IMG/VR virus record: IMGVR_UViG_3300042503_002233 | Span: 1 to 60,721 of that record | Source of the DNA: a virus | Direction: 5' to 3' (one strand) | DNA length: 60,721 nucleotides | In this document: piece after piece, positions 43,115-47,746 of the stretch | Position numbering within the stretch: the stretch's first letter is position 1 | How the letters are laid out: the number at the start of each line of letters is the position of its first letter | Translations under genes and position numbers: made by a program | The notes under the pieces: model-generated | Database searches by the model: none | The model's input: only the letters and a program-made list of their open reading frames with translations | Told to the model about the DNA's origin: nothing

Positions 43115-43339
43115 GTGTTAGTGCTCTCGCGTAAAAAAGACGAAGACATCCTCATTCAAACACCAGAGGGTCGCGTCGTGACGATTCGTGTTGTCGAAAT
43201 TGTAGGCGATAAAGTGCGCCTCGGATTCGAGGCAGAGAAATGCGTGTCGATTGTGCGCACAGAACTTATATCACCCAAAGAGGTTAAACATGGGCTGGAA
43301 CGACCGGCTAATGGAGGACCCTTACATCCCGCCCCCTGA
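43115..43339 (+). CDS. csrA: CsrA/RsmA-family translational regulator
   Basis: The 74-residue product starts with MLVLSRKKDEDILI, the CsrA N-terminus with Leu4 and Arg6, and continues with the usual beta strands (VVTIRVVEIVGDKVRLGFEA) and IVRTELI, supplying the RNA-binding Arg (Arg48 here, Arg44 in E. coli). The start is GTG with Shine-Dalgarno AAGGG. CsrA dimers bind GGA in hairpin loops of leaders and block or stabilise translation. The last 15 residues (after ISPKEV) are a proline-rich extension. It overlaps the next gene by 50 bases. A candidate decoy RNA is encoded 400 bases downstream on the other strand. Confidence 0.87.
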   Translation: MLVLSRKKDEDILIQTPEGRVVTIRVVEIVGDKVRLGFEAEKCVSIVRTELISPKEVKHGLERPANGGPLHPAP

Positions 43340-43577
43340 GTATTATCGCGCCCGCGATGAATATGAAATGTGGCTGGAGTACGTCGAAGCGCGACTAAAC
43401 GAAGAAAAAGGTTTAACGTCGCAGAATCTTGACCCCCTAACGCTAACCACACCAACTAATGGCCAAAACACAGACCAAGTCGAAAAAGAAAACCGTATCG
43501 AAGAAAAAGACCGGCAGTTTCGAATTCAGGGCGTTGAAGCCAACGCCGAAGAAAGAGCTACGGAACTCCCATTTTAA
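43290..43577 (+). CDS. Small acidic protein overlapping csrA
   Basis: A 95-residue protein with Shine-Dalgarno AAGAGG within csrA and ATG 43290. The first 45 residues look genuine (YIPPPEYYRARDEYEMWLEY). The rest is highly charged and overlaps the next gene for 119 bases. It is probably co-translated with csrA. Function unknown. Confidence 0.45.
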   Translation: MGWNDRLMEDPYIPPPEYYRARDEYEMWLEYVEARLNEEKGLTSQNLDPLTLTTPTNGQNTDQVEKENRIEEKDRQFRIQGVEANAEERATELPF

Positions 43578-43731
43578 AGAACTTTACACGGCGCTTGACC
43601 TGCTCGACGCCGTGGCGACAAGCGATAACATGGACGACTTACCGACTGGAGAGCTAGCGTTTTACGCCAGCACGCTCAACCATATGGCGATTGCTCTAAA
43701 GTTCCGGCTTGACGATTTGACCGGCAAGTAA
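43459..43731 (+). CDS. Small basic protein at the end of the csrA operon
   Basis: A 90-residue protein with a Lys/Thr-rich N-terminus (MAKTQTKSKKKTVSKKKTGS) that could bind nucleic acid, and a C-terminal helical part (FKELYTALDLLDAVATSDNM, LAFYASTLNHMAIALKFRLD). The Shine-Dalgarno is poor and it overlaps the upstream frame by 119 bases, so one of the pair may be untranslated there. Its stop abuts the A-run of the opposite-strand terminator. Confidence 0.45.
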   Translation: MAKTQTKSKKKTVSKKKTGSFEFRALKPTPKKELRNSHFKELYTALDLLDAVATSDNMDDLPTGELAFYASTLNHMAIALKFRLDDLTGK

Positions 43732-43760
43732 AAAAAAAACACCCGGCATCATGCCGGGTG
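43731..43760 (-). terminator. Intrinsic terminator of the candidate small RNA
   Basis: On the minus strand CACCCGGCA and TGCCGGGTG form a nine-pair GC-rich stem with a three-base loop, followed at once by nine to ten Ts. It is a textbook rho-independent terminator for leftward transcription and stands about 130 bases beyond another leftward terminator. Confidence 0.85.
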
Positions 43761-43853
43761 CCGCAATCCAATCCTTGGGTTGCTAAATGCTGTCCTTGCA
43801 ATTTACTTGGCTGGCGACCCGACCATATGCCGTCGCCGCCGTTCCTTGCCGCG
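43731..43853 (-). ncRNA. Candidate CsrB/RsmZ-like decoy small RNA
   Basis: Between two leftward terminators lies a roughly 123-nt region with its own promoter. On the minus strand it holds three CAAGGA motifs (complements of TCCTTG at 43843-43848, 43793-43798 and 43772-43777) and a fourth GGA (43767-43769). One CAAGGA sits in the loop of a stem GCAACCC/GGATTGC, another in a loop closed by TTGC/GCAA, and a GGCGAC/GTCGCC stem lies between. Multiple looped GGA motifs, a short length and a strong terminator are the marks of RNAs that titrate CsrA, and csrA is 400 bases away. No convincing protein is encoded. It could instead be an untranslated remnant. Confidence 0.5.
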
Positions 43854-43859
43854 CGGAAT

Positions 43860-43887
43860 AATGTACTGACGCGCAAAAAAGCGTCAA
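43860..43887 (-). promoter_or_regulatory. Leftward sigma-70-like promoter for the small RNA
   Basis: On the minus strand TTGACG (43887-43882) and TACATT (43865-43860) are spaced by 16 bases, giving five of six and four of six matches to consensus. It lies just after the terminator of the left-facing gene, so it would start a separate transcript near 43853. A small TGACGC/GCGTCA hairpin overlaps it. Confidence 0.5.
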
Positions 43888-43891
43888 TGCC

Positions 43892-43927
43892 AAAAAAAAA
43901 ACAGCCGACCGCAAACGCGATCGGCTG
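43892..43927 (-). terminator. Intrinsic terminator of the left-facing 392-residue gene
   Basis: On the minus strand an 11-pair stem (one T-G) starting CAGCCGA and ending TCGGCTG with a GTTT loop is followed by ten Ts, 30 bases beyond the stop codon at 43957. Confidence 0.88.
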
Positions 43928-43956
43928 CTAGGGACGACCCTGCCGGGACGCCAAAA

Positions 43957-45135
43957 CTACTCTGCTTGATTGGCCAGTTCAAACAGCTTTTCCATCGGCA
44001 GAAGACTTTCGGCCGCCTTTGTTCGCACAACTGCCGCCATCTTGTTTTCCTGCATAAGCCGATCAAGAGAAGCCGCCATTCCGCGGTCGAGTGTGGGCAC
44101 AATCGCGGCAAGCTTGTCGCGATCGAGGTACACGCCGCCGGCGCTCACCGCCTCTGCAAAGTCGTCGCCCAGCCAATTACGCACGTCGTCGAGCGCCAGT
44201 TTTTCCAGATCGGCGAGCGCGTATACGTTGCCGGTAGTCGTCTCGACATTTGACGACATAAAATCTCGGGCCACCTTCTCGGTAACGGCAAACAGCACCT
44301 CTTCAGCGCGCGGTAGCCCGCCGGCGTCATACAGCCGATAAAGATGATTGACGCGGTCAAACTCGTCGACCGCCGCGGCCAGCTTAACACGCGTTTCTTG
44401 AGCTCGCGCGTTATCCGGGTTCTGCTCCAGCGCGGTCGCCAGCTTGAGCATTTCCAGCGACGCGGGCTGGTTGCTGCGCTGCACGAGCCTAGCGCGATCG
44501 CGCAGCATCTCAGCCGCTACCTTCGTGGCGCAGGCGCCGTATCCGGCTGTCAGCGCCAGCATGTGCTCGTGCTCGGAAATGTCAGCATTATGGGCGGCCG
44601 CTTTCTGGAGAATCTTATCAGCAATTGTGTGTCGGTCCTCGAACACAAATTCGTCGCGCCACTTAGAGAAGCCGTGGGCAGCGTACTTAACCTCGGTGGC
44701 GTTTCGCATAGGCCAGTGCCGCTCTTTGACGCCATCGCCGCCGACCCAGACAATCGCAAAGTGCTCGTCGCCGAGATTGGCGGCGGCATCTTCGCCGGCG
44801 GAGGCCACTTTAGCCTCCATCTCTTGGACGGCGCCGAGAATGCCGAAAAACTTGGCCGCGGCGTGAATCCGGGTCTGAATCTCTGATGCGCTCTTTTCGT
44901 TAAACTCTGCCTGCTTGTCGGCAAAAAACAAAGCTGACAGCCAAGTTGCAGGAGCGGTATGACAAGGATAGAGTTTATTGCGCTGATCCGCGTACATGTG
45001 CCGCTGAAGTGTTTCGTCGCCATGTGTCCGCTCATGCGAGGCAGACTTTACAAAATCGGGATTGCTAAAAAGCGACAAAAGGCGGTGCGTTTCGCGACCG
45101 CTGATATCCTGTGTTTGGTCGAGCGGAGTTGTCAT
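43957..45135 (-). CDS. Unknown left-facing protein, 392 residues
   Basis: ATG is at 45135 on the minus strand with Shine-Dalgarno AGGA nine bases upstream. It overlaps the start of the right-facing primase-like gene in CATG. The product is mostly helical and Ala-rich: FADKQAEFNEKSASEIQTRI, a beta segment (EHFAIVWVGGDGVKERHWPM), then long helices. No cysteine pair beyond scattered residues and no membrane helix. It has its own terminator, so it forms a one-gene transcript. No family was recognised; virion or accessory roles are both possible. Confidence 0.65.
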   Translation of the reverse strand: MTTPLDQTQDISGRETHRLLSLFSNPDFVKSASHERTHGDETLQRHMYADQRNKLYPCHTAPATWLSALFFADKQAEFNEKSASEIQTRIHAAAKFFGILGAVQEMEAKVASAGEDAAANLGDEHFAIVWVGGDGVKERHWPMRNATEVKYAAHGFSKWRDEFVFEDRHTIADKILQKAAAHNADISEHEHMLALTAGYGACATKVAAEMLRDRARLVQRSNQPASLEMLKLATALEQNPDNARAQETRVKLAAAVDEFDRVNHLYRLYDAGGLPRAEEVLFAVTEKVARDFMSSNVETTTGNVYALADLEKLALDDVRNWLGDDFAEAVSAGGVYLDRDKLAAIVPTLDRGMAASLDRLMQENKMAAVVRTKAAESLLPMEKLFELANQAE

Positions 45136-47746
45136 GAGTCTTCCTACCTCTTTAGTGCGCCGACATGATCATCTGCGCGCCCTGTCGGCATTAGGGCTGT
45201 CGCTCGAAAAACCCGCGTTCCCGGCTATTTTACAGTGCCCTCGTTGCGGTCAATATACGCTGCAGTTATTCGATGATTTGTTTACTGATGGTATTTGGTT
45301 GAACTGTCAAAGTTGTTCTATGCACGGAGATATCATAATCTTCGGCGCGGAACTATGGAAGTTAAGTTTACCAAATACGCTGACAAAATTCAGCGAAATG
45401 GGCCTGATTGCCGAAAACGACGCTGACCGCGTTTTAGGCGACTATGAGCGGTATTTTAACCGCAGAACCGCCGTAGAAAACTTCCTGTTTGACGCCATGT
45501 CGCAGGTTTGGAACCACGGCGACGACGTAATTGCGTGTCGACTCAGGGATTTGGGTGTACGCCATGAGATAGAAAATTGCTACGGATTACTTGGAGTTGC
45601 CCATTATGACCAGATTGCGAAAGTTTGTTTGGAAGTGGGGCGACCAAAGCCGCCCCGACTACGAGACGATGGCCCCAGTATTGTATTTCCTTTTTATGAC
45701 CTCCCGGGGCGATTAACCGGAGTTTTATTACTGCAGTACAACGAGGCGTACGAATCTAAACAGACGTATGTCCCCCTCTCCGGCGCTAGAAAACAAAGAC
45801 CAGAAGCGGGCTATTATCTGCTGTCTGCCGCATGGCGCGCTAAACAACCAACATTTAAAAACACGCAGTTTATTTTCGATGATCCGCTGTGGGTTGTAAA
45901 AGCGCAGTGTCAAGCGTTTGCCCGTCAACAAGGCTGGCTGCCGATTATGGCCAGCTACACCGGGCCAGAAGCAGAAAGTTACGGAACAAGCTGGCAGTCG
46001 TTCGGGCACGCAGACCGCATATTTCACGGACACAGCCCGACGCCAGAATTAATCAGCCGGGCATGCAACGCCAAAGGCTACATATCTGTCGTGCACAACA
46101 GCCGAGTAAGCGTGTTTCCAAAATTGTCGACGATCAGAACGAATGTGCAAACGTGGCAACAGGCGCTACGCAATACACTCGCCGGCGCAAACGAAATGAA
46201 TGCCGAGGCGTTTGCGAAGCGCCTTACCATCGCGCCCGATAAGCTGCAGGGCTTTTTGACAAAAGTATCTGCGCTATTCTCGCCGGGCTTTCAAGAGCGA
46301 GTCATGCTGGCCGCCACAGCGCCCGCAGACGCGCCGCTTAAAGTGCAGCGCCGCTGGTTTGTAGTCGAACGCGACAGCGGCTGGTGGAGTCAAAGCGGCC
46401 GCCAGATCGCAAATTTTCGCGTCAGCATTGACGAAGTCATTCACGCGGATAACGGTGAGAAAACATACAAAGGCCGCGTCTTCATGGGCGGCGACGTCTA
46501 CGCTTTTACGGAGTCGTCAAAACGTATCGAACACGGCGGCCTGCTCACCTACGCTGACGGCCTGCTGTCGCACAACGGCAAATTAGCCGTGTTCGATTGG
46601 ATGTGGAACAAAAAAGCACATTTGCTTGCCATGCACCTTCACCCGCCGAAACTTATAAATGTTTCAACTGAGTACGGCTGGGACGCACAAGCCAACGTGT
46701 TCAGATTTGCGGGCTACGAGCTTACGCATAACGGGGACGTCACAAAAACACACGTGTGGCCAAAACAGCCAAAAAACAAAGAGTTCCAAGAACCGCTGCC
46801 GATCGCCCCGCTACCGATTCATGACATCATTACGCCGGCGCATGAAAACTCGTTTATATGGGCGACTGCCGCAACGATTCTTGCAAATCTTATCGCCCCC
46901 ATTGCGCGAAAAGATTACGTAGCCACCGCAATCCCTCCGCGCATGTTTTCACTCGTAGCACGAATCGCGGCCGCAATGGGCTGCGACGTTGAAAAAACAA
47001 TGGCGTTCCAAAAACACGTCGCGGGCAAGTTCCTAGAAACAAAAACAGCCGACGCCATATGGCCAGTTGCGTGCTTTGGCGCGTTTAACGACGAGGTTTT
47101 CGGTCATTGTGTGCCTCGTTGTTTCAACAGACCGCTGCTGCTTAAAGTAACAAAACAAAACACGGCTGTTGCACTTAGTTACGGCTGGCAGAGTTTAAGC
47201 AGCGCACCATTCAACGCCGACGCCGATATCAGTCCGCTACGAGCAATTGTTCCGGCCTACATACAACGCGCACTCAAAACGAGAGCCAACTTTTTCAGAG
47301 CGGAAAGTAGTCTTCATGCGCGCGTACTCGAAGATTTAAACACATGGCTCACCGAGACCTACGGCATGTCATTTAATCTGCCGCACGCCAAGACGCTGAG
47401 CCAGTATCCGTCGCACGCCCACGCCGCGCTTATGGCCGAGATAAACGACGCAATTTTGGCCGGGAAAATAGCCGTTTTGCCGCAACCGCGCACAAGCAAA
47501 CAAGCCAAAAACTATATTTTGGTCAAAAAAGACTGCTGGTGGTTGAATCAACAGGCCATAGATCGTTATTTTTATACTGCCCGTTGCGTAGGCCCGAACT
47601 GGTTGATGATTATAGAGTTACTGCAAAAAGACGGTGTTTACGTGGGCGAAGAAGTCGTACAAAATATGTCGGGCGTTCTTGTTAAATCAAATTGGTGCGA
47701 AAGGTTTCACGCAACTCCAAGCATACTGCGAACAGAAATCGGTTAA
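45134..47746 (+). CDS. Primase-like protein with zinc ribbon, apparently without helicase P-loop
   Basis: ATG 45134 follows GGAG by 5 bases. Residues 35-64 (CPRC, then NCQSCSMHGD) match the CHC2-type zinc ribbon of DnaG-like primases, with the typical aromatic and GD after the last ligands. Next, SIVFPFYDLPGRLTGVLLLQ resembles the segment before a TOPRIM domain. A degenerate TOPRIM-like part (QFIFDDPLWVVKAQCQAFAR) follows. The C-terminal half recalls DUF927-type helicase modules, but no Walker A or B motif is visible. It may therefore prime DNA synthesis with another helicase, or be a divergent replication protein. It diverges from the 43957 gene with overlapping start codons. Confidence 0.55.
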   Translation: MSLPTSLVRRHDHLRALSALGLSLEKPAFPAILQCPRCGQYTLQLFDDLFTDGIWLNCQSCSMHGDIIIFGAELWKLSLPNTLTKFSEMGLIAENDADRVLGDYERYFNRRTAVENFLFDAMSQVWNHGDDVIACRLRDLGVRHEIENCYGLLGVAHYDQIAKVCLEVGRPKPPRLRDDGPSIVFPFYDLPGRLTGVLLLQYNEAYESKQTYVPLSGARKQRPEAGYYLLSAAWRAKQPTFKNTQFIFDDPLWVVKAQCQAFARQQGWLPIMASYTGPEAESYGTSWQSFGHADRIFHGHSPTPELISRACNAKGYISVVHNSRVSVFPKLSTIRTNVQTWQQALRNTLAGANEMNAEAFAKRLTIAPDKLQGFLTKVSALFSPGFQERVMLAATAPADAPLKVQRRWFVVERDSGWWSQSGRQIANFRVSIDEVIHADNGEKTYKGRVFMGGDVYAFTESSKRIEHGGLLTYADGLLSHNGKLAVFDWMWNKKAHLLAMHLHPPKLINVSTEYGWDAQANVFRFAGYELTHNGDVTKTHVWPKQPKNKEFQEPLPIAPLPIHDIITPAHENSFIWATAATILANLIAPIARKDYVATAIPPRMFSLVARIAAAMGCDVEKTMAFQKHVAGKFLETKTADAIWPVACFGAFNDEVFGHCVPRCFNRPLLLKVTKQNTAVALSYGWQSLSSAPFNADADISPLRAIVPAYIQRALKTRANFFRAESSLHARVLEDLNTWLTETYGMSFNLPHAKTLSQYPSHAHAALMAEINDAILAGKIAVLPQPRTSKQAKNYILVKKDCWWLNQQAIDRYFYTARCVGPNWLMIIELLQKDGVYVGEEVVQNMSGVLVKSNWCERFHATPSILRTEIG

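Follow-up and report, generated by a model that had tools for sequence, protein, structure and literature searches.

The 60.7-kb virus record IMGVR_UViG_3300042503_002233 was analysed over its full length (hereafter the window) and belongs to a tailed phage encoding baseplate and tail-sheath-like products. It carries a csrA gene on the plus strand and, on the opposite strand, a segment whose sequence and conservation give good support for a small-RNA gene in its own right, with conserved motifs of CsrA type, next to this real phage csrA. The same RNA was found in the same place in two related phages, IMGVR_UViG_3300037189_026991 (L010) and IMGVR_UViG_3300045580_000473 (L009), and in each of the three phages some 0.4-0.6 kb separate it from csrA. 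The main features of the locus are as follows:

43115-43339, plus strand: phage csrA, GTG start, 74 amino acids (aa), in an operon-like run of plus-strand genes
43882-43887, minus strand: -35 box TTGACG, with ATTGACGCT invariant in the three phages
43860-43865, minus strand: -10 box TACATT, with T1, A2 and T6 invariant (TACATT/TAGACT/TATGCT)
43732-43853, minus strand: small RNA of about 122 nt, its start placed from the -10 box; 134.8 bits with model R1
43730-43762, minus strand: intrinsic terminator ending the small RNA, with an 11-pair stem (43762-43738), a 3-nt loop and a T run

The csrA gene and the architecture of the small-RNA gene

The product of csrA scored 56.6 bits with the Pfam CsrA profile (PF02599), for which the cut-off is 27, and judged by its sequence the gene is genuine, as a preliminary description of this DNA had held. 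Residues R48 and E50, which correspond to Arg44 and Glu46 of the E. coli protein, were kept in 28 of 28 aligned phage CsrAs. E. coli Arg44 is the RNA-binding arginine. With the Arg44 equivalent kept and the profile matched, the phage CsrA looks competent as far as its sequence shows. The gene starts 11 nt past the point where the one before it stops, overlaps the following one and is therefore probably part of an operon. The overlap (43290-43339), read in another frame, is probably a constraint on the C-terminal tail (GLERPA...) in many related CsrAs. No close relative of the window csrA was found in the bacterial genomes searched. A csrA-like gene with 60% identity over 51 residues is present in a 595-kb uncultured phage record (LR756511.1:197615-197770).

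On the opposite strand, the promoter proposed earlier (TTGACG-N16-TACATT) was recovered at 43887-43882 and 43865-43860 with both boxes conserved, and the intrinsic terminator was recovered as well. The spacer between the boxes measures 16 nt in all three phages, and its sequence has drifted (31-56% identical). By sequence and conservation, the segment thus appears to have its own promoter and intrinsic terminator, as CsrB/RsmZ-type RNAs have.

Conservation and distribution of the small RNA

Counted over aligned bases, the RNA body shared approximately 91% identity with each of L010 and L009. Between the window and these two phages, identity was 85% for the gene before csrA, 79-81% for csrA, 77-78% for a gene encoding a 392-aa protein, 71% for a gene encoding an 894-aa protein and 58-71% for two small convergent genes. 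The small RNA is better conserved than every neighbouring gene (58-85%), and no other DNA in the region is conserved as well. Its fold was more stable than those of shuffled sequences in all three phages (z of -2.6 in the window, -3.7 in L010 and -3.8 in L009). A coding reading was rejected: no frame is common to the three sequences, the candidates being broken by a shift or a stop after GRQP or MVGSPA. The same-place copies, the identity of about 91%, the kept promoter boxes, the stable folds and the lack of a common frame make a real RNA gene very probable, and we consider the RNA very likely to be functional.

The surroundings of the small RNA bear on two other readings:

43290-43577, plus strand: small gene whose start lies within the 3' end of csrA, 65% (L009) and 47% (L010) identical
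43459-43731, plus strand: small gene converging on the small-RNA terminator, poorly conserved (58-61% DNA identity over aligned bases)
43892-43929, minus strand: terminator of the 392-aa gene, separate from that of the small RNA, 13-pair stem and T run
43957-45135, minus strand: 392-aa protein, a conserved neighbour without Pfam or PHROG match, used as bait for relatives

The small RNA sits between two terminators, downstream of the 392-aa gene, a position that would also fit a mere spacer between tandem terminators, with motifs arisen by chance and no functional RNA. This reading is disfavoured and hardly credible, since conservation in the region peaks in this segment and its promoter is conserved. 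The last plus-strand gene ends against the small-RNA terminator, the T run of which overlaps its stop codon, and no plus-strand terminator was called there. This arrangement would suit a role in controlling the csrA operon by antisense or convergent transcription, with the minus-strand transcript running into the plus-strand operon at its 3' end. However, no gene overlaps the body of the RNA, the 3' gene of the operon varies among the three phages whereas the RNA does not, and both the fold and the motifs would be left unexplained; such control is therefore very improbable.

Relatives were gathered through the 392-aa neighbour protein, yielding 20 and 36 related loci. The proteins of 392 aa (43957-45135) and 894 aa (45062-47746) form a conserved divergent pair in dozens of large phages, and Pfam and PHROG searches gave no match for the pair. 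Several relatives of the window phage measure 190-205 kb, and its terminase shows only a distant likeness to those of known phages. A csrA gene with the RNA-binding arginine kept was present in 31 of the 34 compared loci, those of L012 and L023 being found by profile search though missed by tblastn. From these sequences, csrA is old in this phage group and widely kept. It was unrecognisable in L013, L026 and L051 (records G006, G016 and G026), for which the whole available records were searched. These may be natural csrA losses; the rest of the locus is kept in them.

A model search of the 34 whole phage records, many of which are fragments, found the small RNA in only three, and the RNA-bearing phages form one clade of three with tree support of 100/100. 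The preliminary description had named loss of the motifs and terminator in close csrA-bearing relatives as one observation that would speak against it, and here the outcome was mixed: the small RNA was present with every CAAGGA in the two closest relatives, at 84-86% flanking-protein identity, and absent at 76% and below. In several relatives the slot of the small RNA holds a tRNA-Met (CAT) instead (L011:5184-5258, L012:5183-5256, L017:5177-5250 and L042:5599-5676), which indicates that the slot after the 392-aa gene is a hotspot at which small RNA genes are gained and lost. Judged by this distribution, the RNA is young or much lost, an optional, lineage-specific addition.

Wider searches gave little beyond this clade. 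Pattern searches with three parts of the RNA returned just the L009 and L010 contigs, plus 16-mer matches that the model did not recognise, and no match was obtained in cultured phages or plasmids. Two exact 20-mer matches in bacterial genomes were rejected, as neither fitted the RNA model convincingly. At gathering score, Rfam reported no Csr/Rsm family over the window, only a tRNA elsewhere. Among weak Rfam matches (E up to 10) in the small-RNA region, there was likewise no Csr/Rsm RNA; these matches lay far below gathering scores and mostly covered the terminator end. By homology, the RNA does not belong to the Rfam families CsrB, CsrC, RsmX, RsmY or RsmZ.

CsrA-type motifs and a possible decoy function

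Three CAAGGA motifs and one more GGA, the number given in the preliminary description, were located in the small RNA:

43843-43848, minus strand: CAAGGA motif 1, internal loop, invariant; GGA unpaired probability 0.76-0.80 in the window
43793-43798, minus strand: CAAGGA motif 2, linker, invariant; unpaired 0.82-0.98 in the window, lower in L010 (partly paired)
43772-43777, minus strand: CAAGGA motif 3, apical hairpin loop, invariant; unpaired 0.97-1.00 in all three phages, 0.99-1.00 in the window
43767-43769, minus strand: fourth GGA, invariant, its GG paired in the motif 3 stem and unpaired at just 0.00-0.11

The further statement that two motifs lie in hairpin loops had to be corrected for the window, in which only motif 3 is apical and the others occupy an internal loop, a linker and, for the fourth GGA, a paired GG.

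CAAGGA occurs 19 times on both strands of the window (121 kb), corresponding to about 0.02 expected per 123 nt, and the small RNA is the sole 123-nt stretch of the window with at least two copies. Among 20,000 dinucleotide shuffles of the small RNA, none contained three CAAGGA and 0.065% contained two. The bare GGA count (four) is unremarkable and was reached in 14% of shuffles. The small RNA therefore shows repeated AnGGA above chance, a trait of CsrB/RsmZ-type RNAs. In the L009 contig (123 kb), it is the only terminator-ended segment carrying three AnGGA. Additionally, none of the 15 variable columns among the three phages fell within the 21 motif columns (P 0.044); with so few changes, this is weak, marginal evidence that changes avoid the motifs. 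The terminator loop reads AGGAC in L009 and L010, providing an extra accessible GGA.

We consider that the small RNA may serve this lineage as a CsrB/RsmZ-like decoy for CsrA of the phage (or the host), with a probability of about one half; its transcription, CsrA binding, target and effect on translation are inferred. The RNA would be transcribed from its own sigma-70-type promoter, end at the intrinsic terminator and present three CAAGGA sites over about 122 nt, to which the relatives add the accessible terminator-loop GGA. These sites would capture CsrA dimers supplied by the phage csrA or by the host and so keep them off ribosome-binding sites with the same AAGGA, by analogy with CsrB or RsmZ. 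The RNA would have been gained in, or retained by, one small clade only, atop the older, widespread csrA. That the phage thereby has a self-contained Csr switch, a regulator with its own decoy RNA that times translation of its own or host mRNAs, is a more tentative proposal.

Several observations weigh against the decoy reading. The sequences number just three, all from one clade, and no compensatory base changes were seen among the three copies, whose small number and close similarity leave little room for covariation. Nothing comparable turned up among 530 terminator-like sites from 110 phage loci, almost all of them csrA loci. The two further sites in that set with three AnGGA appear to be ordinary gene starts and not decoys. 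Of the 34 compared loci, 28 have csrA but not the RNA; thus, of the earlier proposal joining RNA and csrA, the dedicated RNA gene with conserved motifs stood, but not its status as a standing part of the csrA locus. Because of these 28 loci and the lack of anything comparable at the 110 loci, a coupling of RNA and csrA cannot be demonstrated statistically; three phages cannot prove the link, and the case for CsrA rests on motifs and proximity. Further points concern the motifs: AAGGA doubles as a Shine-Dalgarno sequence, the RNA has three AnGGA versus eight GGA in RsmZ, the terminator-loop GGA of L009 and L010 is absent from the window RNA, CAAGGA or GGA in apical loops number one in the window and two in the relatives, the apical loop of motif 3 is not an optimal ANGGAX hexaloop on a C-G pair, and the fourth GGA is buried by pairing. 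RsmE binds best to an ANGGAX hexaloop directly on a stem, stemless sites being weaker and buried ones weakest (PMC4005645). Judged by analogy with these rules, the small RNA would be a moderate, non-ideal decoy.

The conservation of the whole body beyond the motifs, the absence of the RNA from most csrA phages and the marginal avoidance of motifs by changes (P 0.044) would fit an RNA that base-pairs with mRNAs of the phage or host, or one with some other structural role, in which the CAAGGA copies would belong to its pairing or folding and would not be CsrA sites. We regard this as unlikely, though it deserves consideration: three exact CsrA-type hexamers beside csrA are unlikely by chance, and AAGGA is complementary to the anti-Shine-Dalgarno and not to ribosome-binding sites, so it would be a poor seed against mRNA starts. 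A decoy acting only on host CsrA, or on ribosomes through three Shine-Dalgarno-like AAGGA, and unrelated to the adjoining phage csrA, is improbable. Its promoter of host sigma-70 type, apart from the csrA operon, would suit such a role, as would the pairing of AAGGA with the anti-Shine-Dalgarno and, in the passages on a plasmid CsrA homologue, its cross-talk with host Rsm RNAs (PMC9928087). However, the constant proximity of the RNA to the phage csrA in all three phages argues against it, and there is no pointer to the host, nor to CsrA in the host.

Phage csrA genes have been counted before. A decoy RNA beside csrA would offer a compact, testable circuit of one protein, one RNA and defined motifs, and, if true, would mean that phages carry whole post-transcriptional switches beyond single regulator genes. 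Even with another role, the RNA is a strongly conserved phage small RNA outside known families.

Comparison with known systems

No precedent for a phage encoding both csrA and a decoy RNA was found in the full text of open-access papers, to which the search was confined. The relevant passages report csrA homologues in 30 phages (PMC7366521) and a plasmid CsrA homologue, RsmQ, that binds host RsmY and RsmZ (PMC9928087). These cases resemble the window phage in placing csrA on a mobile element; unlike it, they come with no element-borne decoy RNA in those passages. In Salmonella, the release of prophages is inhibited when csrA is overexpressed (PMC12371270).

Two other groups of RNAs share single features with the phage RNA, as far as the passages concerned describe them. 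The E. coli rrA/rrB/rrF RNAs are small RNAs between two terminators that interact with CsrA in vitro (PMC8144298), whereas the phage RNA has its own conserved promoter. The non-coding RNAs of phiKZ found by Grad-seq (PMC8545117) are likewise RNAs of roughly 100 nt in a large phage; no link to CsrA-type binding is described there, unlike the motifs of the phage small RNA.

The phage RNA also resembles RsmX/RsmY/RsmZ of Pseudomonas and CsrB/CsrC of enterobacteria. It differs from them in having no Rfam match, fewer motifs, one of them apical, and a phage-borne position beside a phage csrA. Nor was a sign of GacA-type control noticed, although no search was aimed at it. It shares with them a stand-alone, terminator-ended, hairpin-rich design with repeated AnGGA and is similar in size to the Rsm RNAs, RsmZ of P. 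fluorescens being 127 nt long with eight GGA (PMC4005645).
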